From Dillenia suffruticosa (taxonomy: Eukaryota; Streptophyta; Magnoliopsida; Dilleniales; Dilleniaceae): DNA of 64,000 bases. A program made the translations under genes and the position numbers. The notes under the pieces are model-generated. The model saw only the letters and a list, made by a program, of their open reading frames with translations. It did no database searches and was not told the origin of the DNA. Numbering within the stretch: position 1 is the stretch's first letter; each line of letters begins with the position of its first letter. Positions 23,046 through 48,518 of the stretch are shown here, in pieces. The stretch is taken from the NCBI GenBank assembly GCA_033439265.1, contig JAVTVX010000012.1, positions 35,032,261 to 35,096,260 on the forward strand, read 5' to 3'.

Positions 23046-23050
23046 TAATT

Positions 23051-23115
23051 CCATATATACCCTTGCTCGTACAGCTGTCATCACGTTGCTGAACAGCTGT
23101 CATCACCTTGGGAGT
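23051..23115 (+). promoter_or_regulatory. Putative promoter of a plus-strand transcription unit
   Basis: CCATATATACC (23051-23061) is a plausible TATA element. It is followed by two direct copies of ACAGCTGTCATCAC (23071 and 23093), each with a CAGCTG E-box palindrome. The next ~225 bp, up to the first splice donor at about 23340, contains no ATG and is GA-rich, as expected of a plant 5' leader. This is inference from motifs; no transcript evidence is available. Confidence 0.4.
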
Positions 23116-23229
23116 TGCGACCTTCTAACCCTAAGCCCTTTACTTCTCCCTTGCAAACGATCAGAAGGTCATTTTCTCGTAGGCATTGGGGGGGGGGGGG
23201 GGGGAGGGGAGAGAGCGCAAGAAAGAGAG

Positions 23230-24013
23230 CGCAAGAAAGAGAGCGGGAGGGAGGGAGGAAGGGAGAGAGAGGGAGAGCGCTTGGTCTTCTCTTCTTTTTG
23301 CAAGTTTCTTCTTGAGTCTCTCAGCAATTAGACTGCAAGGTAAGGCTTTTTGTTAAAATTTTGTTTTCTTGATCGCAGGATTGTGTGAGTCTCTCTCTCT
23401 AGGGTTTCTAACACCTGCTTTGAAATTTCTAGACGGAGAAAGAGAGAGAGAGAGCGCATTGTCTTCTCTTCTTGATTATGGTCTTGGTGTCTGGATTTTG
23501 TTTCCTGCGTCTCTCAGCAATTAAAATGCAAGGTAAGGCCTTTTGTTTAAAATTTTGGTTTCTTGATCGCAGTATTGTGTGTGTGTCTCTCTCTAGGGTT
23601 TCTAACACCTGCTTTGAAATTTCTAGACGGAGAAAGAGAGAGAGAGCGGATTGTCTTCTGTTCTTGATTATGGTCTTGGTGTCTGGATTTTGTTTCCTGC
23701 GTCTCTCAGCAATTAAAATGCAAGGTAAGGCCTTTTGTTTAAAATTTTGGTTTCTTGATCGCAGTATTGTGTGTGTGTCTCTCTCCAGGGTTTCTAACAC
23801 CTGCTTTGAAATTTCTAGACGGAGAAAGAGAGAGAGAGCGGATTGTCTTCTGTTCTTGATTAGGGTCTTGGTGTCTGGATTTGGTTTCCTGCGTCTCTCA
23901 GCAATTAAAATGCAAGGTAAGGGTTTTTGTTTAAAATTTTGGTTTCTTGATCGCAGTATTGTGTGTGTGTCTCTCTCCAGGGTTTCTAACACCTGCTTTG
24001 AAATTTCTAGACG

Positions 24014-24099
<86 letters not shown>

Positions 24100-25170
24100 G
24101 AGAGCGCATTGTCTTCTCTTCTTGATTAGAGTCTTGGTGTCTGGATTTGGTTTCCTGCGTCTCTCAGCAATTAAAATGCAAGGTAAGGCGTTTTGTTTAA
24201 AAGTTTTCTTGATCGCAGTATTGTGTCTCTCTCTAGGGTTTCTAACACCTGCTTTGAAATTTCTAGACGGAGAAAGAGAGAGAGAGAGAGAGAGAGAGCG
24301 CGCATTGTCTTCTCTTCTTGATTAGGGTCTTGGTGTCTGGATTTGGTTTCCTGCGTCTGTCAGCAATTAAAATGCAAAGTAAGGCTTTTTGATTAAAATT
24401 TTGTTTTCTTGATCGCAGTATTGTGTCTCTTTCTCTTGGGTTTCTAACATCTGCTTTGAAATTTCTAGACGGAGAAAGAGAGAGAGAGCGCTTCTTGATT
24501 AGAGTTTTGTTGTCTGGATTTGGTTTCCTGCGTCTGTCAGCAATTAAAATGCAAGGTAAGGCTTTTTGTTTAAAATTTTGTTTTCTTGATCACAGTATTC
24601 TCTCTCTGTCTCTCTAGGGTTCCTAATGCCTGGTCTGAAATTCTAGACATCGTAGTATATCTGTGTGGTTTTTTCAAGTCTCTTTGAATTTTAAATGGAT
24701 ATTGAGGTCTTGAATCTTATGCATGTTCTGGATCGGTGAAGTGAATCAATCAATCTCTCCATGTATTTTCTAATTTTTGTCTTTCATTTGGAGTTTTAAT
24801 TGGAGAATTTTTTGCAGAATTCCATGGTTGTTTCTGGTGGTGATTAGGGTTTTGGTGTCTGGATTTGGTTTCTTGATTCTCTCAGCAATTGGAGAATGCA
24901 GGGTAAGGCTTTCTGTTTAAAATTTGAATGATTGTGATTGCATTATTTTGTCTCTCTCTAGGGGTTCTAATACCTGCTCTGAAATTTGTAGACATCTGAT
25001 ATTTGTGTTTGGTTTTTTCAAGTATCTTTGAATTTTAATTGGACATTGAAGTTTTGAAACTTATACTCGCTAAAGTGAATCAATTAGTTCATTCTTTCCA
25101 TGCTTTTTCTGTTTTTTTTTTGTTTCATTAGGAGTTCTAATTGGAGAATAACTTTTTTTCTTGGATTGAT
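23230..25170 (+). repeat. Tandem array of a leader exon plus adjoining intron, eight copies
   Basis: The string CAGCAATTAAAATGCAAG|GTAAGG (or a close variant) recurs at 23322, 23515, 23707, 23899, 24165, 24361, 24538 and, more diverged, 24883. Spacings are 193, 192, 192, 266, 196, 177 and 345 bp. Each copy has an exon-like part (GTCTTGGTGTCTGGATTTGG, then CTCTCAGCAATT), a consensus donor, then intron-like sequence with pyrimidine-rich AG acceptors (TTGATCGCAG, CTCTCTAG) and a variable (GA)n tract. Copy spacing varies mainly through the (GA)n length. The last two copies carry an extra ~150 bp (GTTTTTTCAAGTCTCTTTGA and on), so the ~192-bp unit looks like a shortened version of an older ~345-bp unit. 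In copies 2-8 an ATG lies just before the donor. No coding body was found downstream. Confidence 0.82.
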
Positions 25171-25319
25171 GCTATTTAAGTTTAAATTTGAGATTATGCA
25201 GGAAATAGTACAATGTAATCATGTTAATGGAATGGTTGTATTTTCTGGGACGATGTTGTTCTATTTCCATATGTAGCCATTAATTCAAATCCTTTCCCCC
25301 CCAACTTTCTATAATTTTG

Positions 25320-25439
25320 TACCCATTATGAAAATGTATGAACAAGGGCAAAAGAAGTGACAATTCAAAAAAAAAAATCCAAAAAATTAAATTTGATTGG
25401 TTGACGAGGAAAACCATGTTTAAAACAATCAAATTCTTT

Positions 25440-25490
<51 letters not shown>

Positions 25491-25577
25491 AAATGACAAC
25501 CTGAATTCTAAAAATGACAGCAAATATTAACCTAACACCCTTTGAATATATATATCTAAAATGAAAAACAAATTAAA

Positions 25578-25661
<84 letters not shown>

Positions 25662-28222
25662 CTTCCCAAAAGTAATATTATTTAGAAAATGAAAATTTTA
25701 AATCTTTTTGCCTTATCTTTCCACAAAATCAGTTTTCCACAAACCAAAAAGAGACCAGGAGAGGGCAAAAGATTTTTTACAATCTAAGATCCTTTAATAT
25801 TTACTCTTCACCAAATCAAAGAAGGGGAGAAGAAATTATGAATCCTAGAGATTGCTTTTGTGAATTATAAATCCGATTTCCTGACAAATCAACTCTTAAC
25901 CCTAAGTCTCTTCCAAGTTTGTCCATATGATGAAATCATATGAACAAAGAATTAAAAAGAAAAAAAAGGAGAGAATTCAAAAATGAAATTCCCCACTAAA
26001 TTAGATTTGATGTTGAATGAGAAAAGCTCCTTTAGAAAGCTGAAAATATATTTGGGCATAAAAGCGACAATCTGAATTTTAAAATAAAATTTACTATGAT
26101 TCCTGAAGCAACAATTCTTTCCTTCTTATGAAATCATACGAATGAAGAGAAAAAAAACAAAAAAATTGAGGAGGGAATTCAAAAAGAAAAATTACCAAAA
26201 ATTTGATTCAGTCTTCAAAGGGGAAAAACCATTTCAAAACTCTGTAAAATTCTAAAAGGAAAAAGGAAATATATTTTGAAAGAAAAGCAACAATCTAAAA
26301 TTGAAAATAATAACGAAATTTCTATCATTAATGAAGTAAATACTCAATTAAAACATGATAAAATTCAACTTTCCACAACATAGCTCAAAAATAGTTCATC
26401 TTTTAAGCTAAATTTTCAAAAAAGTATATGGATTGTCCCACATTTCTGTCCACTTGAGAATACGGAGGCTTTTTTTTAACTTCAGTCGAATCTATTACTA
26501 TACCATTAATGATCATAATCATTTGAAAAACACTGTTATTATCAACAAATATTAATTTAACATAGTTTAAAATATATGTATTAAAAAAGATCAAGTATGA
26601 TGTCAAAGAGAGAGGTGCCCATTAGTTTTCTCCCTATAAATCATATTTGTTTTTTTAGGATAAAATGTTGTTCTAATATTTCCCATAATCTTTATGCATG
26701 CGCAAAAGAATTTTGACATTAATTTTTTCTCGAGAAATGATATTTTTTAGCGTAAAATAATTTTTTGTCCCAGTTTTACCTCTAATCTTTAAGAACATCT
26801 AAAAGATGGAAGACATTAATTTTCTCCCTAGAAATGATATTTTTAAAATAAAATCTTTTATTTTTCTACTTCTTCCCCCTCATTTTTCTGCACATCCAAA
26901 AAATGTTTAACAGTAGTTTTTTCCCTATAAATGATATATTTTTTTTAGAATAAATTTTTGTCTAATTCTTTTCCCTTAACTTTATGGATATTCAAAAAAT
27001 TTTTGATATTAGTTTTCTCCCTAGAAATGATTTTTTTTAGAATAAACTCTTTCCACAACTTAGTACACAAATTGTTCATCTTCTAAATCTATGCTAAATT
27101 TCCAACAAAGTATATCGATTGTCCCACACTTCTTTGCACTTAGAAATATAAGGAGGCTTATTTTTTTTAACCTCAATCAAATCTACGACTATACTAGTAA
27201 TGATCATAATCATTTTAAAAACATTGATTTATTTTCAACAAATATTAATTTTCAACAGCTGTTAATTTAACATAGTTTAAAATATATGTATAAAAAAGAT
27301 CAAATACCATGTCAAAGAGAGAGATGGCTATTAGTTTTCTCCCTAGAAATGATACTTTTTAGAATAAAACCTCTTTGGTCTAATCTTTCCCATAATCTTT
27401 ACGCATACCCAAAATAATTTTGACATTAATTTTTTCCTGAGAAATGATATTTTTTAGAGTAAAGTATTTTTTGTCTAATTTTCCCTCAAATCTTTAATCA
27501 CATCTAAAAGATTTATGACATTAATTTTCTCCCGAAAAATGATTTTTTTAAAATAATATCTTTTTTATGTAATTCTTCCCCCTAATCTTTATGCACATCC
27601 AAAAATTTTTTACAATAGTTTTTCACGAGAAATTATATTTTTTTCAGCAAAATTTTTTCTTTTTCTAATTCTTTCCCCATATCATTTTGCACATCAAAAA
27701 AATTTTTTACATTAGTTTTCTCCCAAAAAATGTTATTTTTTAAAATGAACTCTTTTTTATCCAATTTTCCCCCTAATCTATATGCTCATCCAAAGGCTTG
27801 TTTTTTTTTAAACATTCTGACAATCTTCTTTTTAAAATCTCTTCCCAAAAAATCTACTACCCACCAATTCAAAGAAGGATAGATCCTAGAGATTGCTTAT
27901 GCGACTTCTAAATCACATTTCTAAATAAACAAAAGATCTTTTGCCTTCACCTACAGTCCCAACTACAAAATCATGTGAGCAAAGACTAATTGAAGAGAGT
28001 ATTCAAAAAAAAAAAAAAAGAAAGATCCAATTAAATTCAATCATGTCGTGAGAAAAACCAAAACCCTTTTCAAATTCTTGAAAAAAGTAAGTAAATTTGC
28101 TCAAAAATGCAACCATCTAAATACTGAATAAGAATGAAAATTTTTGCAACTAATGAGGTTTTTACTTGGTAAACCATGTCACTAACTAAATTATAAACGA
28201 AACAATGTAAGATCATTATCTT
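25320..28222 (+). repeat. Left flank of the large array: diverged repeat units
   Basis: Older, scrambled relatives of the core units. One module (AAATTAAATTTGATTGGTTGACGAG and following) parallels the AATTCAATCATGCGATGAGAAAAACC module of the core. The segments near 26390-26640 and 27060-27340 are two copies of one sequence (AAAGTATATGGATTGTCCCA / AAAGTATATCGATTGTCCCA), each followed by runs of the ~95-bp sub-repeat. Contains a (TA)n run at 25443-25487 and a (GA)n run of about 78 bp at 25581-25658. No gene. Confidence 0.7.
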
Positions 28223-31200
28223 CCTCCCTAGAAATCATACTTTTTAGAATAAAACCTTTTTGGTCTAATCTTTTCCATAATATTTTTGCATACCCAAAAC
28301 AATTTTGACATTAATATTCTCGCGATAAATGATATTTTTTAGGGTAAAGTATTTTTTGCCTAGTTTTCCCTCTAATCTTTAACCACATCTAAAAGATTTA
28401 TGACATTAATTTTCTCCCTACAAATGATACTTTTAAAATAAAATCTTTTTTGTGTAATTCCTCCCCTTAATCTTTCGGCACATCCAAAAATTGTTTACAT
28501 TAGTTTTTTCACTTGAAATGATATTTTTTCATCATAATTTTTTCTTTTTCTAATTCTTTCCTCTTTTCATTATGCACATCCAAAAAATTTTTTACAATAG
28601 TTTTCTCCCAAAAAATGTTATTTTTTAAATGAACTCTTTTTTGTCCAATTTTCCCCCTAATCCTTATGCTTATCCAAAGGCTTTTTTTTTAAACATTCTG
28701 AAAATCTTCTTTTTAAAATCTTTTCCCAAAAAATCTACTATCCACCAATTCAAAGAAGGATAGATCTTAGAGATTGCTTAGGTGACTTCAAAAGCACATT
28801 TCTATATAAACAAAAGATCTTTTCCCTCCACCTACAGTCCAAACAACGAAATCGTATGAGCAAAGACCAATCGAAGAGAGTATTCAGAAAAAAAAGAAAG
28901 ATCCCAAAAATATAAATTCAATCATGCGATGAGAAAAACCAAAATCCTTTCCGATTCTCTGAAAAAGCAATTAAATTTCTACAAAAATACAACCATCTAA
29001 ATCCTGAATAAGAATGAAAATTTCTGCAACTAATAAGGTTTGCACATTGTAAACCATGTCACTAACTAAATTATAAACCAAACAATGTAAAATAGATCGT
29101 TATCGTCTAGATCTATGCTAAACTTCCGGCAAAGAGTATGAGGATTACATAAACTTCGTGATAATTCCGTGCCCACCGAAAGAAAAATGAGGATGCTTAT
29201 ATTTTCTTATCTCAACCATATCTAAAACCATACCTCTAATGAGACAATCATTCCAAAAGTGGTTTTGTTGTCAGACACGCTCTAAGGTATTACGAAAAGG
29301 CATAATGTCAAATGGAGATGTGCATATTTGTTTTCTCAACAAAAATAATATCTTGCATAAGATGAAATTTGAAATCTTATTGCTTGATTTTCCCCCAAAA
29401 TCAATTGTGTGCTAAATAGCAAAGAGAAGAGAGGGAGGTATCCAAGATATGTTTGTCTGAAACGATTCTTATATAATCTTCCCCCGCCCCCAAAGAATTC
29501 CTCTCCACTAAATCAAACTTACAAAGAGACAAGATCGACTAGATTTTAGAGATTACTTTCCTCATTTGTAAACTGCATTTGATGACAAGCCAAAATCTTT
29601 CCACTCAACCTTTTACACATCATGTTGAGTTGTATGAACAAAAAGTTAAAAAAAAAAAGGAACAGAAAAAAGAAAATCCAAAATGAGAGATGAAAAATAA
29701 AACCCAACAAGAGTAGATTAGATCGTCCAATGAGAGAAACAACGACAAATTCTAATAGAAAAAAAAGTAAATATTTGTGGACCAAAAATTAAAAATCTGA
29801 AATAACAACATTGTTAGTAACTTAACTATAAATCCAACACTATAAAATAAATAGCTATTTTCCTCCCTAGAAATCATACTTTTTAGAATAAAACCTTTTT
29901 GGTCTAATCTTTCCCATAATCTTTATGCTTACCCAAAAGAATTTAGACATTAATTTTCTCGCGATAAATGATATTCTTTAGGGTAAAGTATTTTTTGCCT
30001 AATTTTTCCTTCTAATCTTTAACCACATCTAAAAGATTTATGACATTAATTTTCTCCCTACAAATGATATTTTTAAACTAAAATCTTTTTTGTATAATTC
30101 CTCCCCCTAATCTTTCGTCACATCCAAAAATTTTTTACATTAGTTTTTTCACTTGAAATGATATTTTTTCAGCTTAATTTTTTCTTTTTCTAATTCTTTC
30201 CTCTTTTCATTATGCACATCCAAAAAATTTTTTACAATAGTTTTCTCCCAAAAAATGTTATTTTTTAAATGAACTCTTTTTTGTCCAATTTTCCCCCTAA
30301 TCCTTATGCTTATCCAATGGCTTGTTTTTTAAACACTCTTAAAATCTTCTTTTTAAAATCTTTTCCCAAAAAATCTACTATCCACCAATTCAAAGAAGGA
30401 TAGATCTTAGAGATTGCTTAGGTGACTTCAAAATCACATTTCTATATAAACAAAAGATCTTTTCCCTCCACCTACAGTCCAAACTACGAAATCGTATGAG
30501 CAAAGACCAATCGAAGAGAGTATTCAGAAAAAAAAGAAAGGTCCCAAAGATATAAATTCAATCATGCGATGAGAAAAACCAAAATCCTTTCCGATTCTCT
30601 GAAAAAGCAATTAAATTTCTACAAAAATACAACCATCTAAATCCTGAATAAGAATGAAAATTTCTGCAACTAATAAGGTTTGCACATTGTAAACCATGTC
30701 ACTAACTAAATTATAAACCAAACAATGTAAAATAGATCGTTATCGTCTAGATCTATGCTAAACTTCCGGCAAAGAGTATGAGGATTACATAAACTTCGTG
30801 ATAATTCTGTGCCCACCGAAAGAAAAATGAGGATGCTTATATTTTCATATCTCAACCATATCTAAAACCATACCTCTAATGAGACAATCATTCCAAAAGT
30901 GGTTTTGTTGTCAGACACGCTCTAAGGTATTACGAAAAGGCATAATGTCAAATAGAGATGTGCATATTTGTTTTCTCAACAAAAATAATATCTTGCATAA
31001 GATGAAATTTGAAATCTTATTGCTTGATTTTTCCCCCAAAATCAATTGTGTGCTAAATAGGAAAGAGAAGAGAGGGAGGTATCCAAGATATGTTTGTCTG
31101 AAACGATTCTTATATAATCTTCCCCCCCCCCCAAAGAATTACTCTCCACTAAATCAAACATACAAAGAGACAAGATCGGCTAGATTTTAGAGATTACTTT

Positions 31201-34200
31201 CCTCATCTGTAAACAGCATTTGATGACAAGCCAAAATCTTTCCACTCAACCTTTTACACATCATGTTGAGTTGTAAGAACAAAAATTTAAAAAAAAAGGA
31301 ACAGAAAAAAGAAAATCCAAAATGAGAGATGAAAAATAAAACCCAACAAGAGTAGATTAGATCGTCCAATGAGAGAAACACATGACAAATTCTAATAGAA
31401 AAAAAAGCAAATATTTTTTTACCAAAATTGAAAAATCTGAAATAACAACATTGTTAGTAACATAACTATAAATCCAACACTATAAAATAAATATCTATTT
31501 TCCTCCCTAGAAATCATACTTTTTAGAATAAAACCTTTTTGGTCTAATCTTTCCCATAATCTTTATGCTTACCCAAAAGAATTTAGACATTAATTTTCTC
31601 GCGATAAATGATATTCTTTAGGGTAAAGTATTTTTTGCCTAATTTTTCCTTCTAATCTTTAACCACATCTAAAAGATTTATGACATTAATTTTCTCCCTA
31701 CAAATGATATTTTTAAACTAAAATCTTTTTTGTGTAATTCCTCCCCCTAATCTTTCGGCACATCCAAAAATTTTGTTCATTAGTTTTTTCACTTGAAATG
31801 ATATTTTTTCAGCTTAATTTTTTCTTTTTCTAATTCTTTCCTCTTATCATTATGGACATCCAAAAAATTTTTTACAATAGTTTTCTCCCGAAAAAATGTT
31901 ATTTTTTTAAATGAACTCTTTTTTGTCCAATTTTCCCCCTAATCCTTATGCTTATCCAAACGCTTTTTTTTTTAAACATTCTGGAAATCTTCTTTTTAAA
32001 ATCTTTTCCCAAAAAATCTACTATCCACCAATTCAAAGAAGGATAGATCTTAGAGATTGCTTAGGTGACTTCAAAATCACATTTCTATATAAACATAAGA
32101 TCTTTTCCCTCCTCCTACAGTCCAAACTACGAAATGGTATGAGCAAAGACCAATTGAAGAGAGTATTCAGAAAAAAAAGAAAGATCCCAAAAATATAAAT
32201 TCAATCATGCTATGAGAAAAACCAAAATCCTTTCCGATTCTCTGAAAAAGCAATTAAATTTCTACAAAAATACAACCATCTAAATCCTGAATAAGAATGA
32301 AAATTTCTTCAACTAATAAGGTTTGCACATTGTAAACCATGTCACAAACTAAATTATAAACCAAACAATGTAAAATAGATCGTTATCGTCTAGATCTATT
32401 TTAAACTTCCGGCAAAGAGTATGAGGATTACATAAACTTCGTGATAATTCTATGCCCACCGAAAGAAAAATGAGGATGCTTATATTTTCTTATCTCAACC
32501 ATATCTAAAACCATACCTCTAATGAGACAATCATTCCAAAAGTGGTTTTGTTGTCAGACACGCTCTAAGGTATTACGAAAAGGCATAATGTCAAATGGAG
32601 ATGTGCATATTTGTTTTCTCAACGAAAATAATATCTTGCATATGATGAAATTTGAAATCTTATTGCTTGATTTTTCCCGCAAATCAATTGTGTGCTAAAT
32701 AGCAAAGAGAAGAGAGGGAGGTATCCAAGATATGTTTGTCTGAAACGATTCTTATATAATCTTCCCCCCCCAAAGAATTACTCTCCACTAAATCAAACAT
32801 ACAAAGAGACAAGATCGGCTAGATTTTAGAGATTACTTTCCTCATCTGTAAATAGCATTTGATGACAAGCCAAAATCTTTCCACTCAACCTTTTACACAT
32901 CATGTTGAGTTGTATGAACAAAAATTAAAAAAAAAGGAACCGAAAAAAGAAAATCCAAAATGAGAGATAAAAAATAAATATCCAATAAGAGTAGATTAGA
33001 TCGTCCGAAGAGAGAAGCACAACAAATTCTAAAAAAAAATAAAGCAAATATTTTTGGACCAAAAATTAAAAATCTGAAAGTTAATAATATTTTAAACTTC
33101 TACCATTAAGGAAGTTAATTATTCTTAAAAAGACTAAGTCCAGCTCAATAGTAGAAGAGTTCATAAATAGTAACAACATTGTTAGAAACTTAACTATAAA
33201 TTCGACACAATAAAAATAAATAACTATCTTCGCCCCTAGAAATGGTACTTTTTAGAATAAAACCTTTTTGGTTTATTCTTTCCCATAATCTTTATGCTTA
33301 CCCAAAAGAATTTTGACGTTAATTTTTTCCCAATAAATGATATTTTTTAAAGTAAAGTATTTTTTGTCTAAATTTTTATGCTAATCCTTAAGCACATGTA
33401 AAAGATTTGTGACATTAATTTTCTCCCTATAAATGATATTTTTAAAATAAAATGTTTTGCTATGTAATTCTTCCCCCTTATCTTTCTGCACATCCAAAAA
33501 TTTTTTACAACGGTTTTTTCATTTGAAATGATATTTTTTTCAGCATAATTTTTTCTTTTTCTAATTCTCTCCCCTTATAATTTTGGACATCCAAAAAATT
33601 TTTTACATTAGTTTTCTCCCTAAAAATGTTATTTTTAAAATGAAATCTTTTTTGTCGAATTTTCCCCATAATCTATATGCTCATCCAAAGGATTTTTTTT
33701 TTAACATTCTGAAAATCTTCTTTTTAAAATCTTTTCCCAAAAAATCTACAATCCACCAATTCAAAGTAGGGTAGATCCTATAGATTGCTTTGGTGACTTC
33801 TAAATCACATTTCTAAATAAACAAAAGATCTTTTCCCTCCACCTACAGTCCCAACTACGAAATCATATGAGCAAAGAAATCATATGAGCAAAGACTAATC
33901 GAAGAGAGCATTCAAAAAAAAAAAGATCCCAAAAAAAGTTAAATTCAATCATGTGATGAGAAAAACCAAAACCCTTTCAAATTCTTGAAAAAAGCAAGTA
34001 AATTTGCAGAAAAATGTAACCATCTAAATCCTGAATAAGAATGAAAAATTTTGCAACTAATGAGGTTTGCACATTGTAAAATGTGCCACTAACTAAATTA
34101 TAAACCAAACAATGTAAAATTGATCGTTATCTTCTAGATCTATGCTAAACTTCCGGCAAAGAGTATTAGGAATACATAAACATCCTGATAATTCTTTGCC

Positions 34201-37200
34201 CACCGAAAGAAAAATAAGGATGCTTATATTTTCTTAGCTCAACCATATCTAAAACCATACCTCTATGAGACAATCATTCCATAAGTGGTTTTGTTGTTAG
34301 ACACGCTCTAAGGTATTAAGAAAAGGCATAAATGTCAAATAGATATGTGCATATTTGTTTTCTCAACAAAAATAATATTTTCCATAAGATGAAATTTGAA
34401 ATCTTGTTGCTTGATTTTTCCCCCAAAATCAATTCTTTGCCAAATAGTAAAAAGAAGAGAGGGAGGCATCCAAGATATGTTTGTCTGAAATGATTCTTAT
34501 ATAATCTTCCCCCCCCCCCAAGAATTACGCTCGACTAAATCAAAGATATGAAGAGACTTGATAGGTTAGATTTTAGAAATTACTTTCTTCATCTATAAAC
34601 CGCATTTCATGACAAGCCAAAATCTTTCCCCTCAACCTTTTACTCCTCATGTTGAGTTATATGAACAAAAAGTTATAAAAAAAGGGAACAAAAAAAAGAA
34701 AAACCAAAATGAGAGATCAAAATTAAATACCCAGCATGAGTAGATTAGATCGTTCGATGAGAGAAACACATGAGAAATTCTGAAAGTTAATAATATTTAA
34801 AACTTCTACCGTTAATGAAGTTAATTATTCTTAAAAAGATTAAGTCCATCTCTACAGTAGAAGAGTTCACAAATGGTAACAACATTGTTAGTAACTTTAA
34901 CTATAAATCCAAACACTATGAAATACATAACTATCTTCCTCGCTTAAAATGGTACTTTTTAGAATAATTCCTTTTTTGTCTAATCTTTTCCGTAATGCTT
35001 ATGCATATCCAAAAGATTTTTGACATTAATTTTCTCATGATAAATGATATCTTTTTAGAGTAAAGTATTTTTTGTCAAATTTTTCCCTTTAATCTTTTTG
35101 CATTTCTAAAAGATTTGTGACATTAATTTTCTCCCTACAAATGATATTTTTAAAATAAAATCTTTTTCATGTAATTCTTTCCCCTAATCCTTCTGTACAT
35201 CCAAAATTTTTTACATTTGTTTTTTTCACTCCAAATGATATTTTTTTCTTCTTAATTTTTTCATTTTTCTATTTCTTTCCCTTGATCATTATGCACATCC
35301 AAAAAATGAACTCTTTTTTGTCCAATTTTCCCCCTAATCCTTATGCCTATCGAAAGGATATATTTTTTTTAACGTTCTGAAAATCTTCTTGTTAAAATCT
35401 TTTACCAAAAAATCTACTATCCACCAATTCGAAGAAGGGTAGATCCTCGAGATTGCTTACATGACTTCTAAATGACATTTCTATATAAACAAAAGATCTT
35501 TTCCCTCCACCTACAGTCCCAACTACGAAATCAAATGAGCCAAGACTAATCGAAGAAAGTATTCAACAAAAAAAAAAAGAAAGATCCCAAAAAAATTAAA
35601 TTCTATCATGCGATGAGAAAAACCAAAACCCTTTCAATTTCATGAAAAAAGCAAGTAAATTTGCACAAAAATGCAACCATCTAAATCCTGAATAAGAATG
35701 AAAATTTCTGCAACTAATGAGCTTTGCACATTGTAAGCCGTGTTACTACCTAAACTAGAAACCAAACAATGTAAAATAGATTGTTATCATCTAGATGTAT
35801 GCTAAACTTCCGGCAAAGAGTATAAAGATTATATAAACTTTGTGACAATTTTGTGCCCACTGAAAGAAAAATGAGGATGCTTATGTTTTCTTATCTCAAC
35901 CATATCTAAAACCATCCCTCTAATGAGATAATCATTCCAAAAGTGGTTTTGTTGTCAGACATGCTCTAAAGTATTAAGAAAATGCATAATGTGAAATAAA
36001 GATGTGCATATTTGATTTCTCAACAAAAATAATATTTTCCATAATAAGAAATTTGAAATCTAGCTTGATTTTTTTCCCGAAATCAAGAGGCATCCAAGAT
36101 ATGTTTGCCTGAAATGATTCCTATATAATCTCCCCCCCCCCAACAATTACTCTCCACTATATCAAATATATAAATAGACAAGATAGGTTAGATTTTAGAG
36201 ATAACTTTCCTCATCTGTAAACCGCATTTCATGACAAGCCAAAATCTTTCCCCTCAACCTTTTACACCTCATGTTGATTTGTATGAACAAAAAGTTCCAA
36301 AAAGAAGGGAACAGAAAAAAGAAAATCCATAATGAGAGATCAAAAATAAATAACCGACAAGAGTAGATTAGATCGTCCGATGAGAGAAATGCATGACAAA
36401 TTCTGAAAGAAAAAAAAGCAAATATTTTTTGACCAAAAATTAAAAATTTGAAAGTTAATAATATTTAAAACTTCTACCATTAATGAATTTAATTATTCTT
36501 AAAAAGATTAAGTCCTGCTCAACAGTAGAAGAGTTCACAAATGGTAACAACATTGTTGGTAACTTAACTATAAATCCAACAGAATAAAAATACATAACTA
36601 TCTTCCTCCCTAGAAATGATACTTTTAGAATAAAACCTTTTTGGTCCAATCGTTCCCATATCTTTATGCTTAACCAAAATAATTTTGAAATTAATTTTCT
36701 CTCAAAAAATGATATTTTTTAAAGTAAAGTATTTTTTGTCAAAGTTTTTCCTTCAATCTTTAAGCACATCTAAAAGATTTATGACATTTTATCTCCCTAC
36801 AAATGATATTTTTAAAATAAAATCTTTTTTTGTGTAATTCTTCCCCCTAATCTTTCTACACATCAAAAATTTTTTACATTAGTTTTTTCACTTGAAATGA
36901 TATTTTTTCAGCATAATTTTTTCTTTTTCTAATTCCTTCCCCCTATCATTATGCACATCCAAAAAAATTTTTACATTAGTTTTCTCCCAGAAAAATGTAA
37001 TTTTTTTTTTTTTTTTTTTTGAAATGAACACTTTTTTGTTCAATTTTCCCCCTTATCTTTATGCTCATCTAAAGGGGTTTTTTTTTTATCGTTATGAAAA
37101 TCTTCTTTTTTAAATCTTTTTCCAAAAAATCTACTATCCACCGATTCAAAGAAGGATAGATCCTAGAGATTGCTTACGTGACTTGTAAATGACATTTCTA

Positions 37201-40200
37201 TATAAACAAAAGATCTTTTCCGTCCACCTACAGCCCCAACTATGAAATCACATGAGCAAAGACTAATCGAAGAGAGTATACAAAAAAAAAGGAAAGATCC
37301 CAAAATAAATTAAATTCAATCTTGTGATGAGAAAAACCAAATCCCTTTCAAATTCTTTAAAAAAGCATGTGAATTTGCACAAAAATGCAACCATCTAAAT
37401 CTTGAATAAGAATGAAAATTTCTGCAACAAATGAGGTTTTTACATTATTAACCATGTCACTAGCTAAATTATAAACCAAACAATGTAAAATAGATCGTTA
37501 TCTTATAGATCTAGACTAAACTTTCCAGCAAAGAGTATGAGGATTGTATAAACTTCCTAATAATTCTGTGCCCACCGAAATAAAAATGAGGATGCTTATA
37601 TTTTCTTATCTCAATCATATCTAAAACCATACCTCTAATTATCTCAACCATATCTAAAACCATACCTTTAATGAGACAATCATTCCAAAAGTGGTTTTGT
37701 TGTCAGACATGCTCTAAAGTATTAAGAAAAGGCTTAATGTCAAAAAGAGATGTGCATATTTGTTTTCTCAATAAAAATAATATTTTGCATAAGATGAAAT
37801 TTGAAATCTTATTGCTTGATTTTTTTTCCCAAAATCAATTCTCTGCCAAAACAGTAAAGAGAAGAGAGGGACGCATCCAAGATATGTTTGTCTGATATGA
37901 TTCTTTTATAATCTTCCCCCGCAAGAATTACTCTCCACTAAATCAAAGATAGAAAGAGACTTGATAGGTAAGATTTTAGAGATTACTTTCCTCATCTCTT
38001 AATAGCATTTCATGACAAGCCAAAATCTTTCCCCTCAACCTTTTACACCTCATGTTGAGTTGTATGAGGAAAAAGTTAAAAAAAAAGGGAACAGAAAAAA
38101 GAAAATCCAAAATGAGAGATAAAAAAATAAATACCCGACGAGTATATTAGATCGTCCGATGAGAGAAACACGACAAATTCTAAATGAAAAAAAAGCAAAT
38201 ATTTTTGGACCAAAAATTAAAAATCTGAAGTTAATAATTTTTAAAACTTCTACCATTAATGAAGTTAATTATTGTTAAAAAGTTTAAGTCCAGCTCAACA
38301 GTAGAAGAGTTCACAAAAGGTAACAACATTGTTAGCAACTTAACTATAAATCCAACACTATAAAATACATAACTATCTTCCTCCCAAGAAATGACTTTTT
38401 AGAATAAAACATTTTTGGTCTAATCATTCCCATAATCTTTATGCATAGCCAAAAGAATTTTGACATTCATTTTCTCCCGATAAATGATATTTTTTGGAGT
38501 AAAGTATATTTTGTCTAATTTTTCCTTCTAATCTTTTATCACATGTAAAAGATTTATGACATTAATTTTCTCCTTACAAATGATATTTTTAAAAAATAAA
38601 ATCTTTTGTGTAATTCTTTCCCTTAATCATTGTGCACATCGAAAAATTTTTTACATTAGCTTTTTCACTTAAAATGATATTTTCTTCAGCATAATTTTTT
38701 CTTTTTCTAATTCTTTCCCCTGATCATTATGCACATCCAGAAAACTTTTTTCATTAGTTTTCTCCCTAAAAATGTTAATTTTTAGTATGAACTCTTTTTG
38801 TCCAATTTTCCCCCTAATCTTTATGCTCATCGAAAGGATTTTTTATTATTTTTATTTTTTTTACACTTTGAAAATCTTCTTTTTAAAATCTTTTGTTAAA
38901 AAATCTACTATCCAGCAATTCAAAGAAGGGTAGATCCACGGGATTGCTGAGGTGACTTCTAAATCACATTTCTATATAAACAACAGATCTTTTTCCTCCA
39001 CTTACAGTCCCAACTACGAAATCATATGAGCAAAGACTAATCGAAGAGAGTATTCAACAAAAAAAAGAAAGATCCCAAAAAAAATTAAATTCAATCTTGC
39101 GATGAGAAAAACCAAAACCCTTTCAAATTCTTTAAAAAAGCATGTGAATTTGCACAAAAATGCAACCATCTAAATCCTGAATAAGAATGAAAATTTCTGC
39201 AACTAATGAGGTTTTCATCTAGGAAACCGTGTCATTAGCTAAATTATAAACCAAACAATGTAAAATAGATCATTATCTTCTAGATCTAGGCTAAACTTCC
39301 TGCAATGAGTATGAGGATTATATAAACTTCCTAATAAATCTATGCCAACTGAAAGAAAAATGAGGATACTTATATTTTCTTATGTCAACCATATCTAAAA
39401 CCATACCTCTAATGAGACAATCATTCCAAAAGTGGTTTTATTGTTAGACACGCTCTAAGGTATTAAGAAAAGGCATAATGTCAAATAGAGATGTGCATAT
39501 TTGTTTTCTCAACAAAAATAATATGTTCCATAATATGAAATATGAAATCTTATTGCTTGATTTTTTCCCCAAAATCAATTCTCTACCAAAACAGTAAAGA
39601 GAAGAGAGGGAGGCATCCAAGATATGTTTGAATTTATTCTTATATAATCTTCCCCCCCAAGAATTTCTTCCCACTAAATCAATGATTTAAAGAGACAAGA
39701 TAGGTTAGATTTTAGAGATTACTTTCCTCATCAGTAAACTGCATTTCATGACAAGCCAAAATCTTTCCCCTCAACCTTTTACACCTCATGTTGAGTTGTA
39801 TGAGCAAAAAATAAAAAAAAAAAGGGAACAGAAAAAAGAAAATCCAAAATGAGAGATAAAAAATAAATACCCAACAAGAGTAGATTAGATCGTCCGATGG
39901 GAGAAACATGACAAATTCTAAAAGAAAAAAAAGCAAATATTTTTGGTCCAAAAATTAAAAATCTGGAGTTAATTATATTTAAAACTTCAACCATTATTGA
40001 AGTTAATTATTGTTAAAAAGATTTAAGTCCTGCTCAACAGTAGAAGAGTTCACAAGAGGTAACAACATTGTTAGTAACTTAACTATAAATCCAACACCAT
40101 AAAATACATAACTATCTTCCTCCCTAGAAATGATACTTTTTAGAATAAAACCTTTTTGGTCTAATCATTCCCATAATCTTTATGCATATCCAAAAGAATT

Positions 40201-43200
40201 TTGACATTAATTTATTTTTGATAAATGATATTTTTTGGAGTAAAGTATTTTTTCTCTAATTTTTCCCTCTTATGCACATGTAAAAGATTTATGACATTAA
40301 TTTTCTCCCTACAAATGATATTTTTAAAATAAAATCTTTTTTCCCCTAATCTTTTTGCACATCCAAAAATTTTTTACTTCAGTTTTTTCATTTGAAATGA
40401 TATTTTTTTCAATATAATTTTTTCTTTTTCTTATTCTCCCCTTATCATTATGCACATCAAAAATGTTTTTTACTTTTGTTTTCTCCCTAAAAATGTTATT
40501 TCTAGAATGAACTCTTTTTTGTCGAATTTTCCCCGTAATCTTTATGCTCATCCAAAGGATTTTTTTTTTTTTAAACATTTTGAAAATCTTCTTTTTAAAA
40601 TCTTTTCCCAAAAAATCTACAATCCCGAATTTAAAGAAGGGTAGATCCTAGAGATTGCTTAGGTGACTTCTAAATCACAATTCTATATAAACAAAAGATC
40701 TTTTCCCTCCACTTACAGTCCCAACTACGAAATCATGAGTAAAGACTAATTGAAGAGAGCATTCAAAAAAAAAAGAAAGATACCAAAAAATATTCAATCA
40801 TGCGATGAGAAAAACCAAAACCCTTTCAATTGTTGAAAAAAGCAGGTATATTTGCACAAAAATGCAACCATCTAAATCAAGAATGAAAATTTTTGCAGCT
40901 AATGAGGTTTGCCCATTGTAAACCGTGTCACTAACTAAATTATAAACCAAAAAATGTAAAATAGATCGTTATCTTCTAGATCTAAGCTAAACTTTCGGCA
41001 AAGAGTATTAGGATTACATAAACTTCTTGATAATTCTATGCCCACAGAAAGAAAAATGAGGATGCTTATATTTTCTTATGTCAACCGTACTAAAACCAAA
41101 CCTCTAATGAGACAATCATTCCTAAAGTGGTTTTGTTGTCTAACACGCACTGAAGTATTAAGAAATGGCATAATGTCAAATAGAGATGTGCATATTTGTT
41201 TTCTCAACATAAATAATATTATGCATAAGTTGAATTTGAAATCTTATTGCTTGATTTTTCCCCCAAAATCAATTCTCTGCCAAATAGTAAAGAGAAGAGA
41301 GGGAGGCGTCCAAGATATGTTTGTTTGAAATGATTCTTATATAATCTTCCCCCCCAAGAATTACTCTCGACTAAATCAAAGATATGAAGAGACAAGATAG
41401 TTTAGATTTTAGAGATTACTTTCCTCATCTGTAAACCGCATTTCATGACAGGCCAAAATCTTTCCCCTCAACCTTTTATTCCTCTTGTTGTGTTATATTG
41501 TCAAAAAGTTAAAAAAAAAAGGGGGAACAGAAAGAAGAAAATCCTAAATGAGAGATGAAAAATAAATACCCAATATGAGTAGATTAGATTGTCCGATGAG
41601 AGAAACACATGACAAATTCTAAAAGAAAAAAAAGCAAATATTTTTGGACCAAAAATTAAAAATCTGAATATTAATAATTTTTAAATCTTCTACCATTAAT
41701 GAAGTTAATAATTCTTAAAAAGATTTAGTCAAGCTCAACCGTAGAAGAGTTCACAAATGGTAACAACATTGTTAGTAACTTAACTATAAATCCAACACTA
41801 TAAAATACATAACTATCTTCCTCCCTAGAAATGATACTTTTTAGAATAAAACCTTTTTGGTCTAATCTTTCCCCTAATCCTTATTCATATGCAAAAGAAT
41901 TTTGACAGACATTTTCTCCCGATAAATGATATTTTTTAGAATAAAGTATTTTTTGTCTAATTTTTCCCGGTAATTTTATGTATATCTAAAAGATTTATGA
42001 CATTTATTTTCTCCATTCAAATGATATTGTTAAAATAAAATCTTTTTTGTGTAATTCTTCCCCCTAATCTTTTTGCACATCCAAAAATTGTTTACATTAG
42101 TTTTTTCACTTGAAATAATAATTTTCTCTGGATAATTTTTGCTTTTTCTAATTCGTTCCTCTTGTCATTATGCACATCCAAAAACTTTTTACATTAGTTT
42201 TCTCCCTAAAAATGTTATTTTTTAAAATGAACTCTTTTTTGTCCAATTTTCCCCCTAATCTTTATGCACATCCAACGGATTTTTTTTTAACCTTATGAAA
42301 TTCTTCTTTTTAAAATCTTTTCCCAAAAAATCTACTATCCACCAATTCAAAGAAGGATAGATCCTAGAGATTGCTTAGGTAACTTCTAAATCACATTTCT
42401 ATATAAACAAAAGATCTTTTCCCTCCACCTACAATCCCACCTACGAAATCATATGGGCAAAGACTAATCGAAGAGAGTATTCAAAAAAAAAAAGCAAGAT
42501 CCCAAAAAAAATTAAATTCAATCATGCGATGAGAAAAACCAAAACCCTTTCAAATTCTTGAAAAAAACAAGTAAATTTGCACAAAAATGCAACCATCTAA
42601 ATCTTGAATGAGAATGAGGTTTGCACATTGTAAACCGTGTCACTAACTAAATTATAAACCAAACAATGTAAAATAGATCATTATCTTCTAGATGTATGCT
42701 AAACTTCCGGCAAAGAGTATAAGGATTATTTAAACTTCCTGATAATTCTGTGCTCACTGAAAGAAAAATGTGGATGCTTATATTTTCTTATCTCAACCAT
42801 ATCTAAAACCATACCTCTAATGAGACAATCACTCCAAAAGTGGATTTGTTGCCAGACACGCTCTAAAGTTTTAAGAAAAGCCATAATGTTAAATAGAGAT
42901 GTGCATATTTGTATTCTCAACAAAAGTAATATTTTCCATAAGAAGAAATTTGAAATCTTATTGCTTTATGTTTTCCCCCAAAATCAATTTTCTTCCAAAT
43001 AGTAAAGAGAAGAGCGGGAGGCATCCAAGATATGTTTGTATGAAATGATTCTTATATAATCTTCCCCCCCAAGATTTACTGTCGACTAAATCAAAAATAT
43101 GAAGAGACAAGATAGGTTAGATTTTAGAGATTACTTTCCTCATCTGTAAACCGCATTTCATGACAAGCCAAAATCTTTCCTCCCAACCGTTTACACCTCA

Positions 43201-43527
43201 TGTTGAGTTGTATGAACAAAAAGAAAAAAAAAAAGGAAGAGAAAAAAGAAAATCCAAATTGAGAGATAAAAAATAAATACTTAACAGGAGTAGATTAGAT
43301 TCTCCGATGAGAAAAACACATGACAAATTCTAAAAGAAGAAAAAGAAAATAATTTTTGGGACCAAAAATTAAAAATATGAAATTAATCATATTTAAAACT
43401 TCTACCATTAATGAAGTGAATTATTCTTGAAAATATTAAGTCCAGCTCAACAGTAGAAGAGTTCACAAAAGGTAACAACATTGTTAGTAACTTAACTATA
43501 AATCCAGCACTATAAAATACATAACTA
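28223..43527 (+). repeat. Core of a large tandem array: nine units of about 1.64-1.78 kb
   Basis: Unit starts, taken at the CCTCCCTAG-like word, are 28223, 29862, 31502, 33231, 34938, 36605, 38380, 40119 and 41820, ending about 43527. The independent marker GAGACAATCATTCC gives the same register: 29241, 30881, 32524, 34267, 35925, 37673, 39414, 41109 and 42822. Module order in each unit: a block of about five ~95-bp sub-repeats; AAATCTACTATCCACCAATT; TTTCCCTCCACCTACAGTCC; a poly-A stretch; GCGATGAGAAAAACCAAAA; AAACTTCCGGCAAAGAGTAT; AAGTGGTTTTGTTGTCAGAC; ATCCAAGATATGTTTGTCTG; a poly-C run; TTGATGACAAGCCAAAATC; ATTGTTAGTAACTTAACTAT. The first units (28223-32700) are nearly identical to each other. 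Short frames recur at matching positions in several units but are broken in others, so I do not call them genes. Confidence 0.93.
29862..30325 (+). repeat. Example block of five ~95-bp sub-repeats inside one array unit
   Basis: Each sub-repeat follows the pattern TTTTCTCCCTAGAAATGATA, then TTTTTTAGAATAAAATC, TTTTTTGTCTAATTCTTCC, CCCTAATCTTTATGCACATC, and CAAAAGATTTTTGACATTA. Starts are near 29862, 29955, 30051, 30144 and 30241. The same five-part block opens every core unit, and further copies lie in the left flank. The array is therefore nested: short sub-repeats inside long units. Confidence 0.85.
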
Positions 43528-45740
43528 TCTTTTAGATCCATACTAAACTCTCAACTAGACTTGGGGATTGGATAAACTTCCCAATGATTCCCTCCCTGCT
43601 TGAAGAAAAATGAGGAAGCTAATATTTTTCTATTCACAGACAAATCTACAATCATAAGTCTAATGTTAACATTCATCTTAAAAAGATTTTATTTTCACAA
43701 ATATCAATCAAAAACCCTTTAAAATTTGAACACAAAAAGAATTAGTCAATCATGATGTTAAAGAAAGAAGAACTCGTTAGATTTGTCTTCCAAAATAATA
43801 TTTTTCGGAAAATGAAATTTAAAATCTTTTTGCTGAATCTTTCTGTTAAAAGTTGATCTCAACTGCATGAAGAAGAGAGAGCATCAAACATTCAAAAGAT
43901 TTTTAACAATCTGAAATCATTTTCATACCCAAAGATTCTACATTCAAAAAAATCCCAGTTCCTCACAAACCAAATCTTTCCCCTCCACTTCCAAGCCCTA
44001 CGATTCCTTGCTAACCAAATTTGGAAATCCCATTTCTTCACAATTCAAATCCAAATTTGAAGATGGTGTTTTTGTTGTTACCGAGTATCAACCTCATATA
44101 TTAGAATTTTCTTTCCCAATTTTAAAATCCCATTGTTGACAAACCAAATCTTTCATCAAAATCATGCGTGGAGTAAAAAAATATATATATATATGAAAAC
44201 TGTGAGAATTCCCCCCCCCCAAAAAAAAAATCCCAACAAAGTTTCATTCGATAGTGTGATGAGAAAAAACACTTTTGAGACCCGTCAAATTCTAAAAGCC
44301 AAGAGAAATATATTTGAAAAAATGTAACAATCTTTAATCTAAAATAATAATTAAATTTCTGGTGCTAATGAAGTTAATACAATTAATACAAAATAAAATT
44401 CAACTCTCGGTAATAAACTTTCCAAATGGTAACAACTCTCCTAAATGGTAACCACTCTATGGGTAAGTACGGGTCGAATATTGTAAAATAGATAGTTACC
44501 TTTTAAGTATATGCTAAACTTCCAACAAAGCATATAGATTATACTTTTACAATCTGAGAATCCTCTTTGCATAATCTTTTCCCAATCTACTTTCCAACAA
44601 ATCAGAGAAAAAATCAGGTCGAAAGGATAGATCATATAGATCATATAGACAGATTACCTGATGGTAAATCCAATTTCTTCCCCGACCAAATCTTTCCCCT
44701 CCCCTTGTTATAGTTCTGTCCCTATCATGAACCAATATGCCGTTTGAAGTTCTGAAAGAAGGAAATGCAAATTTGCACATAAAAAGCAACAATTAAAAAT
44801 CTAAAATATGAACCAAAATTTCTACTACTAATGAAGTTAGTACTATTAAAACAAAATTCAATTCAACCCATGTTCGCTTGTAAGAACTGTGTCGGTAACA
44901 AAATTATAAACCATCATTGTAAAAATAATTGGTAATTGTATCTAAATCTATGCTAATCTCCCAACGAAGTATATGGATTCTTCAACTTCCCACACCTCTC
45001 TGCCCATCATTGTACCATATATGACGTGCGTTTCTTTCATTTGTTGATGAAAGAGTTAAAGTCTAATTGAAGTCCAACTCAACAATAACTGATTTCACAA
45101 AAAAGTAATAACATTGTGGGTAACTGAACTATAAATCTACGCTCTAAAATACTTAACTATCTTCTAGATCTATACTAAACTCCCAACAAGCCTTAGGGAT
45201 TGTATAAACTTCTCAATGATTCCCTGCCCACTTGAAGAAAATTGAAGCTTATATTTTTTAATCACAATCAAATCTACAATCATAAGTCTAATGATGACAA
45301 TCGGCTTAAAAACATTTTATTGTTCACAAATATCAATAAAAAATCCTTTAAAATTTATACTCAAAGTAGAAAAAGTCATTCATGATGTCACAGGTAGAAG
45401 AACACGTTAGATTTGTCTCCCAAAATAACATTTTTCAGAAAATGAAATTTGAAATCATTTTGCTGAATCTTTCCCCTAAAGGCTGATCTCCCCTAGATGA
45501 AGAGGGAGAGCGGCAGACATTCGAAAGATTTTTTTGTATCTGAAATGATTTTTGAACCAAAGAGTTCTACATTCAACAAAATCAGTGAAAGAATGGGAAG
45601 AAAGGAAAGATCTTACAAATTGCTTACCTAATTTGCCAATTCAATTTCCTCATAGACTATATCTTTCCCTTCCCCTTCCAAGCCCAACAATTCCTTGCTC
45701 ACTAAATTTGGAAATCCTATTTTTTCCCAATTTACTCTCC
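43528..45740 (+). repeat. Right flank of the large array: two diverged units of a related type
   Basis: Two similar segments, about 43520-44100 and 45145-45740, share TATCTTTTAGATCCATACTA / TATCTTCTAGATCTATACTA, the CAATGATTCCCTGCCCACTT-like word, AATCTACAATCATAAGTCTA, and a closing CTTCCAAGCCC...ATTCCTTGCT. They keep array-like modules (AACAACATTGT, GATGAGAAAAAAC) but lack the sub-repeat block. They look like older or ancestral units at the array edge. A poly-C/poly-A junction occurs near 44210-44230. No gene seen. Confidence 0.65.
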
Positions 45741-48518
45741 TAGTTTAAGGGTATACGAGGGAAAAAATTTGTTCATTTCTATTTTTTCAAATTTCTAAAT
45801 TTATAAAAAGATAGAAAAATGTCAATTTTATCTTATCTCTTTAGCTCTTTGTATCTTGCTCGAGCCAGATGATAAAAAATTATCATGTCTGATTCTTTCA
45901 GGGAGGAATTTATACGTATTCATGTAGACAAATAAAAAAAAATCTAACTTGAATGTGAGTACGATATGCTTGTGGTAATTTCACCCTCTTTTGGCTAAAT
46001 GTAAAATTTAGAAATCTAACTAAAATGTGCTTTTTATGCTTGAACACACACACACACACACACACACACCTGAACGATGAGAGGTAAAAAAAAAATAGCT
46101 CTCCCCTGAAATTTTAACCAAAAAAACTTTTTACATATTTTTCAAAATTATAATGTCTGAAAAATTAAAACATGGAAGCTTTAAACTATAATATAAATGC
46201 ATATTATATTCTGCCTCTTGACATAATCTTTTAACTTCGCCCACATATGTTAAGTTGCTATATTGCATACTAAATGAAATAATGATTAAATGTAAAAATA
46301 ATTTAAAAAAGAGGATTGAATGTATCTCCGGCCATTCTTGATTCCGATGATTGTGATAGCACCAAAATGATACTTGGAACATGCACCGGCTTTTTAAGCA
46401 ATCAATTTCACTCAATAGATGGTGTGGAGTTTTTGAAATTTGGACTTAGGGACCGAATGCACTAAGAGGAGGTTTATATAGACTCTCAACCATCAAAGAG
46501 CCATTAAAATCCTATAATTGTCATCCTAAATTATTGTTGAATATTATGGGAATTTATTTAAATATTCAAAACGGAAAAAAAAGATTAATCGTGTAGAGGT
46601 TTGAATAGGATACCAAAATCCGACCAAATGCATTCCAATTCAAAATCTTTCTATTCTTTATAACATTTAATTTTTTTCGGTTATATTTTTCCCATTAGTT
46701 TCATTTTAAGTACATGAACTTATGGGATTTGAATTTGAAAAAAATTATTAACAACATATGCATTAAACCTACAAGTTTAACTTTGCTTCAAAAAATATCA
46801 TAATAGTTTTCTGATAGACCTAAATATGAATAAAAGTGGTTAAATAACCTTAATTAATGATATTTTTGAGGAAAAAAAAATTATATTGACTGGAGGGGTC
46901 AATGGATTTTGGAGAGCCACCGTAGCATATAGCTCCAATCTAAATGTAATGTGTGTATTTTTGTTAAAACTAGAGCATGGATGAGATTAGCCTATTATGC
47001 ACTTTTTCTTCCCCTTTGCCCAGTACCATACGCTTGAAATGAAAAAAGAGTCCATATTCAACAATTCACGTAACGTTAGTAAGGCCAATCAATCTAGGCT
47101 TATGGGCCAATGCTATGTGATAAATAACCATTCAAAGCAACTGTAAATATCAATTTGGTATGCTTTTGGTGATGAAGGATGGATGCCCATTTAGTGTTTT
47201 TGGTAAAGCAAAGGCTCTGTGACAACCATATTATCATATGGTGCCCCTTTCATGTACTAAAACCACACGTTCTTGGCCTAACAATGAGAAAAAAAGAGGG
47301 AATTTCGTTGCAAATTTCACGAGAACATAAAATGTTTGTTATCTCCCTGGCTCTGTGTCTATTTCCGTTCATCTTCAACCTCCGGAACATCAAACAAAAA
47401 AAAAATCTTAGTCACTTCTTCTCTCTCCACAGATCTTCAAATTCAGAAAAGGCTCACCTTATTCGTCCAAATTCCAGAAACGCCCTTATTATTATAGAAC
47501 CCAAAATCCAAAACCCAAAATTAAATCTCACATCTTCCCAAAATTAAACTCCTAAATCTGTCATCATTTTTTTATGAATACTGAAGATGACAAAAATCTG
47601 ACCTTGATAGAAATTTGAATTGATTCAGAAAACTTGAGATTTCTTGCCAAGGATAAGAAAATCCAAAGTAATTTCTAAGAAATTGAAAGAAATTTGATAA
47701 AAATTTTGTCTCTTTCCATATATCTTCATCTAAAATCCAAAATCTAGGAGGCGGAGAGTTTTGACAAACCCAATATGAGATTGGAGAGCTTTGGGTGTGA
47801 GAAAATTGCAGTTCTGAGATGGGTTTGATTGAGAAAATTAGGGTTTTGAGTGCATGGAATGTTCCGTCCAAGTAAACCTTTTCATCCCGAAAATTTCACT
47901 GATTCTGACATGGTGGAAAGGGTAGGGTTTTTGATCGCGAACTGCGATGTTGAATGTGGTGGATGAAGTTAGGATTATGAGAGAGAGTCGGGAGATTGGA
48001 GGAGGGAGGGAAAGAGGAGAGGTTAAAGACCATTTGGTATCTCTTCGCCATGTTTGCTAATACCTTCAATAGCTTCTGCCTGAACAAATGATCAAATGCT
48101 TGCTGCTTAAATATATAAAGAAACTTGATAAAGCATTTGAGAAAGTGGGTTTGTTTGCTTGCTGCTGTTGGTGATGAGAGTAGAAAGTGGGTTTGTTTGC
48201 TTGATGCTATTGGCGATGAGAGAGGAGAGAGAGAGAGAGAGAGAAATGGGTTTGTTTGTTGCTGTTGGCGAGCAGAGGAGATGGGAGAGAGAGGGGAGGA
48301 TGATTGGGGTTAATTTTGAAAAAAAATATAAATTTGGAGGTCAACTCAACTTTTCCGCGCGTGATTCCCAGACTCTGTGAAATCCTACTTTTTCCGTCAC
48401 TTTTTTTTTTTTTTTAATTTAACTACATGGAAATAATTTGATATTTTTTTCACCATAGGAGAATACCTGAATTTCGATCAAACCACATGGGATAAATAGT
48501 AATTTTTCCTTTAATTTT
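45741..48518. other. No recognisable gene; simple repeats
   Basis: AT-rich with a (CA)n microsatellite at 46044-46069. The part 47330-48310 is less AT-rich and has several short frames on both strands, but none shows a domain, a signal or a convincing splice structure. A three-copy minisatellite of about 42 bp (GAAAGTGGGTTTGTTTGCTT and following) lies at 48141-48279, interrupted by (GA)n. Confidence 0.45.

Follow-up and report, generated by a model that had tools for sequence, protein, structure and literature searches.

A nested higher-order tandem array behind a recurrent promoter-like leader in the genome of Dillenia suffruticosa

Results

The window is a stretch of 64,000 nucleotides of Dillenia suffruticosa DNA (C12:35,032,261-35,096,260; locus W), taken from a 596-Mb assembly of 37 contigs, which are designated by C-numbers and bear no chromosome names. 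Positions without a contig or fetched-piece number are those of the window. A Di19 gene lies on the minus strand at about 4-6.6 kb (4063-6641; Pfam zf-Di19 and Di19_C), and a 253-aa, Asn-rich, secreted-looking ORF without a Pfam match, which we take to resemble fibre protein E6, on the minus strand at 61135-61896; with these, the description of the region as gene-poor in a first-pass annotation holds only in part. A Tf2-1-like SH3 domain fragment (52273-52698; Pfam SH3_Tf2-1), presumably of Ty3/gypsy type, is found 6.5 kb beyond the tandem array described below.

The array is preceded on the plus strand by a leader region at about 22,948-25,280, which the first-pass annotation had omitted. This region starts with a promoter-proximal block carrying a TATATACCCTT motif (22948-23137), shared with other loci, and continues with the leader itself (23138-25280), which is supported by TRF and genome homology and consists of 192/196-bp tandem repeats of exon-like sequence ending in AATGCAAG/GTAAG, followed by a unique 3' part. 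TRF places the repeats at 23309-24030 (period 192, 96%) and 24074-24488 (period 196). The promoter-proximal block aligns with C24 and with C17 at 71.7% identity over 138 columns each, and the promoter-proximal region with C34 at 68.5% over 1,492 columns, starting at 21770; only 39 bp of the block are common to C15:3.02M (hereafter C15a), and no direct match to C29 was detected. The TATATACCCTT motif is aligned in five loci, with a TGTATACCCTT variant in C29 and C26, and GTAAG is retained in 9 of 11 aligned leader rows, the exceptions being C29 and C26. In the comparison of W with C34, most leader windows are 90-97% identical versus 87-95% for the array, and between C15a and C24 the leader is no better conserved than the array. 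With a somewhat better conserved leader in one pair and no difference in the other, these alignments do not show a special constraint on the leader and so provide no demonstration of function.

The array had been described as a nested tandem array of about 20 kb at 25320..45740. Self-BLAST and profile searches bear out its organization, with nine head-to-tail units that each open with five sub-repeats of about 95 bp, and restrict the regular array to 28,177-43,531, the adjoining 25,286-28,176 and 43,532-45,750 being made of monomers of the same family that have diverged or are truncated. The nine plus-strand units, recognized by their cores, sub-repeats and tree position, each comprise five 95-bp repeats, the remainder of a monomer A and a monomer B. 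By self-BLAST, a 1,125-bp core was found in nine copies that are complete or almost so, starting at 28679, 30318, 31965, 33690, 35364, 37075, 38852, 40564 and 42282, with at least 1,117 core positions aligned in eight copies and 1,075 in the copy at 33690; a tenth, truncated piece is located at 27801-28223. The cores follow one another at 1,639, 1,647, 1,725, 1,674, 1,711, 1,777, 1,712 and 1,718 bp, in agreement with the proposed periodicity of about 1.7 kb, and TRF independently yields periods of 90-97 bp for the sub-repeats. Pairwise identity among the nine cores is 88-98%. As one off-diagonal self-BLAST HSP spans 10,630 columns at 84.7%, the array is far beyond chance. At its left edge, diverged monomers on the plus strand (25286-26620; nhmmer matches at 25516-25925 and 26402-26695, BLAST matches to other loci) are followed by two truncated plus-strand units (26620-28176; self-BLAST and sub-repeat profile), each with a five-copy 95-bp block (26631-27052 and 27340-27801). 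The diverged monomers of the right edge (43532-45750, plus strand; BLAST, nhmmer and profile) include one at 45104-45731 with a single un-expanded 95-bp segment.

The units are dimers, each combining two diverged monomers of about 850 bp, A and B. A monomer profile, seeded from the right-edge monomer (45,100-45,735 and its matches), identified 51 pieces in the window, and a majority consensus built on 64 monomers, taken both from the window and from elsewhere in the genome, has a period of about 850 bp; its six-frame translation contains no long frame on either strand. Monomer B spans the larger part of the model (in unit 2, which has it at 30692-31254 on the plus strand, positions 10-579; nhmmer E 3.9e-117). 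In monomer A the middle is replaced by five copies of model positions about 304-400, as in the unit 2 block at 29864-30325 (plus strand; sub-repeat profile and same-index identity), so that the 95-bp sub-repeat is a piece of the monomer. The 95-bp profile has 57 matches in the window, namely five in each of 11 blocks (the nine units and the two truncated units preceding them) and two single, un-expanded copies inside ordinary monomers (34368-34426 and 45419-45479); two of the blocks, the first truncated one and that of unit 5, have a shortened fifth copy. The monomer junction reads like TGTTG...CAACA, and an LTR origin was considered.

Sub-repeats of the same index in different blocks have a mean identity of 86.6% (275 pairs), compared to 71.5% for those of different index, whether taken from separate blocks (1,100 pairs) or from one and the same block (110 pairs); the five-mer therefore predates the amplification of the unit. 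At the family II loci examined (C15a, C24, C9, C10, C17 and C31), the 95-bp piece is present as a single copy beside 13 of 13 cores or core starts in the fetched sequence. In family I, four to five copies adjoin 16 of 17 cores or core starts: five in all nine window units, four to five in 3/3 on C34, and five in 4/4 at C15:5.755M (C15d). Core starts rather than whole cores were counted in three of the four cases at C15d and one of the three on C10. The remaining family I core, at C15:5.69M (C15c), has one 95-bp copy and adjoins a large separate expansion. There, at C15:5688001-5698000, a block of 95-bp repeats became the amplified unit, with 72 profile matches in 10 kb and blocks about 500 bp apart. 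Thus, a monomer of about 850 bp was arranged in tandem, a piece of it of about 95 bp became a block of five in one lineage, and the five-mer-bearing monomer was then amplified together with its neighbour, as a unit of 1.64-1.78 kb, at the window locus.

The tree and the identity table were computed for 26 cores, the nine window cores and 17 selected from the other loci fetched, with core fragments excluded. All nine window cores group in a single clade (98/92), whose inner branches measure about 0.007-0.010. Units 1-3 share a stem of 0.041, have tips of 0.010-0.024 and are 96-98% identical; they are recent copies. The tips of units 4-9 are 0.039-0.064 long, and these units are 88-92% identical to each other versus 89-90% to the copies on C34. 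Being nearly as far from one another as from C34, they indicate that the array is not homogenised as a whole; neither the identity table nor the star-like tree of the window units gave a sign of ongoing array-wide homogenisation.

The array is apparently non-coding, judging by its reading frames: the longest stop-to-stop frame in the window array is 122 aa, and a Pfam search with five frames of 95-122 aa gave no family at E 0.01. An Rfam scan of the window returned nothing at gathering score, and a tRNA scan led nowhere. Unit 2 is free of inverted repeats of 14 or more nucleotides, and folding of one 800-nt piece gave z-scores of -1.20 on the plus and +1.04 on the minus strand, without a structural signal. 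No element-encoded protein was found in the window array, which leaves room for non-autonomous elements. The earlier statement that the units do not look like a known transposon is consistent with the Rfam, frame and Pfam results, and the array may still match a catalogued repeat. In composition the array is strand-asymmetric, unlike both flanks, with a GC skew of -0.16 to -0.28 per 2 kb and 17.5% C versus 11.5% G over 25660-45740. Unit-specific substitutions, counted in seven of the nine window units, amount to 25.4 (C>T) and 22.4 (G>A) per 1,000 sites and do not account for this asymmetry. The observed/expected ratios of CpG and CHG are 0.47 and 0.61 in the window array, 0.33-0.41 and 0.56-0.67 in the arrays of five other loci, 0.59 and 0.87 in the left flank, and 0.56 and 0.68 in the right flank.

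Relatives of the array are clustered on seven other contigs (C34, C15, C17, C10, C9, C24 and C31), and C27 carries short fragments, so that the suggestion of a chromosome-specific array is not supported. As 36 of 123 and 40 of 181 candidates were scored in the two array searches, the first of which listed only part of its matches, the whole-genome counts are lower bounds; in the leader search all 27 of 27 were scored. Among the scored candidates, the C27 fragments are the only array copies outside the leader-bearing contigs. A homologous leader is present at 20 places in the genome, with neighbouring copies counted as one place, one place (C15:5766617) resting on a 156-bp match, and seven partial pieces excluded (C34:1060204; C15:5570487, 5572349, 5623066, 5652945 and 5714864; C30). 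The C30 piece is a 258-column intron-like fragment, with neither a leader exon nor a parent gene in 3 kb. At 17 of the 20 places, same-strand array matches are located downstream of the leader: on C12, C34, C9, C24 and C31, at C15a, at six places in C15:5.58-5.77M, at three on C10 and at two on C17. The leaders on C29 and C26 are each accompanied by one truncated monomer. Downstream of the C11 leader, no monomer was found in two samples (1.0 and 1.2 kb) within 6 kb, and the array matches listed include none on C11.

The family II loci C15a, C24, C9, C31 and C17 form gapped collinear chains, built from pieces of at least 300 columns and at least 75% identity, with most pieces at 82-90%. C15a and C9 share the flank past the array including a PPR fragment, and C17 shares only the part before that fragment; this common flank speaks for segmental duplication. 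Downstream of the C15a array the PPR-repeat fragment is on the minus strand (fetched piece L020:7708-8073), and a cytochrome P450 fragment was noted near the C17 blocks (fetched piece L014:1353-1922). The sequence beyond the C34 array includes a hAT-type transposase frame that is open over 728 aa (fetched piece L013:6496-8679; Pfam DUF659 and Dimer_Tnp_hAT, with zf-BED below cut-off). We also considered W and C34 as alleles. This is not favoured, because their homology begins only at about 21,751-21,770, and comparison with the fetched C34 stretch gave no flank match beyond that point or to the right of the array.

The leader regions of C29 and C26 are 97.2% identical over 4,554 columns, one near a contig start (C29) and the other near a contig end (C26), on which grounds they are probably either allelic copies or a recent terminal duplication. 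Behind the leader and its truncated monomer on C29 (764501-769500 and 769501-777500) lies another nested tandem array, for which no similarity to the main array was detected. Its spacings are about 1.0-1.14, 1.9-2.1 and 6.2 kb; of its eight kilobases, six have a GC skew of -0.35 to -0.49 and two of -0.14. It contains a palindromic stretch of 1.14 kb (L035:3710-4849, in the second of the two C29 pieces), 87.7% identical to its own reverse complement, where GC reaches 66% per kb. Decayed minus-strand frames recur in this array and presumably resemble a plant retroelement ORF; three pieces of them match no Pfam family. A 46-aa peptide from putative C29 exons found nothing in Pfam and one PDB match at E 1.4, and a genome search for a parent of these exons returned only C29 and C26.

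Discussion

In higher-order repeats of the alpha-satellite type, diverged monomers are bound into a larger unit, which is then amplified, so that copies of the same index are closer than neighbours. The window array has the same features, its multi-monomer units running head to tail. It differs from that type as a local, 20-kb, leader-linked array with star-like units. Array-wide homogenisation is usual in satellites; the structure found here is a higher-order repeat without it.

Related leader-plus-array blocks occur at many sites, some of them collinear over many kb. As the relatives lie at many places, most of them behind the same promoter-like leader, a duplicated block of leader and repeats describes the locus better than a satellite peculiar to one chromosome, and we think it probable, with some reserve, that the array is the body of such a block, composed of a promoter-like, exon-like leader and a nested tandem array without recognised coding sequence. 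Its amplification steps may have proceeded via unequal exchange or replication-based tandem duplication, and the block would have spread through segmental duplication. The leader would be, or have been, a transcription start, and the array mostly a neutral passenger, decaying without homogenisation as a whole. Neutral tandem growth in a leader-bearing block spread by segmental duplication would be the most cautious mechanism to propose. Against the duplicated block count the C11 leader without a sampled monomer, the C31 array, which as read comes only to about 17 kb from its leader, the irregular spacing of the monomer starts detected at other loci (113 to 4,039 bp), the different array on C29, the missing sign of special constraint on the leader, and the strand asymmetry, for which the counted substitutions do not account. 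Among the publications listed for plant tandem and nested repeats, we recognised none that describes this array family, and absence from print is not claimed.

Some of the other readings are compatible with this one, so that our confidences in all the readings together, this one included, sum to slightly more than certainty. The main rival, which we regard as possible but doubtful, is a functional lncRNA gene with the leader as promoter and first exon or exons and the array transcribed as a long repeat-rich RNA; it would place the transcription start at the TATACCCTT block and is compatible with a duplication history. It draws on the promoter-proximal block and TATA-like motif common to several loci, on the splice-donor-like GTAAG in most leader rows, and on the shared orientation of leader and listed array matches at all 17 places that have both. 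The Drosophila hsr-omega lncRNA gene, as outlined in PMC9865238, has a comparable architecture, in which tandem repeats with a 280-bp unit extend over about 5-15 kb behind a unique 5' part that contains exons. The plant locus, set against that outline, has many genomic copies, a repeated leader and a unit of about 1.7 kb, and its transcription is hypothetical. The lncRNA gene is disfavoured by the lack of a consistent excess of conservation in the leader, the loss of the donor GTAAG in C29 and C26, the tandem multiplication of the exon-like leader itself, and the folded 800-nt piece without structural signal.

The C29/C26 pair bears on an extension of the lncRNA reading. Behind this leader a dissimilar array with an even stronger C-over-G skew (array read at C29 only) replaces the main array, which would suggest that array growth is favoured, irrespective of sequence, by the leader or by its transcription. 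It is conceivable, though we hold it to be unlikely, that plants have a family of hsr-omega-like non-coding loci, in which a tandemly amplified shared leader would repeatedly acquire or maintain strand-asymmetric downstream arrays.

A repeat locus producing siRNA, or behaving in a paramutation-like manner, is in our view improbable, and would be compatible with a duplication history. The tandem arrangement of monomers of about 850 bp and the depletion of CpG and CHG in the array speak for it; the depletion is, however, little stronger than in the right flank, and unit 2 lacks inverted repeats. The tandem repeats of maize b1 reportedly have a unit length of 853. The lengths are similar (maize b1: PMC3798267), whereas silencing and siRNA are hypothetical for the window array.

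We consider quite improbable that leader and array form a large mobile element and move as a unit. Numerous dispersed copies in which the parts follow in the same order would fit, but the last array matches in W and C34 stop at different monomer positions, the left homology limit differs between locus pairs, the flank after the array with its PPR fragment is common to C15a and C9 and partly to C17, as in a segmental duplication, and the five array frames match no Pfam family. Satellites of Lathyrus that arose from tandem repeats within LTR retrotransposons, as reported in PMC7004042, resemble the present family in their dispersed loci and arrays expanding in length. They differ from it in that no LTR element was recognised around our arrays, whose dispersed companion is the leader.

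Knobs are built on a short knob-type monomer, and the chromosome-specific macrosatellite or knob-like locus proposed in the first-pass annotation is highly improbable, as its long units and local array, which do fit a macrosatellite in the loose sense, are opposed by the clusters on seven other contigs and the C27 fragments, by several loci of tens of kb each, and by the absence of a short knob-type monomer.

The paralogous loci examined retain the state that preceded the 95-bp expansion, which makes the order of nested amplification directly legible. Should the leader prove active, these loci would represent a multi-copy counterpart, in a plant, of lncRNA genes with repeat tails, and would offer a natural test of whether transcription favours the growth of tandem arrays.
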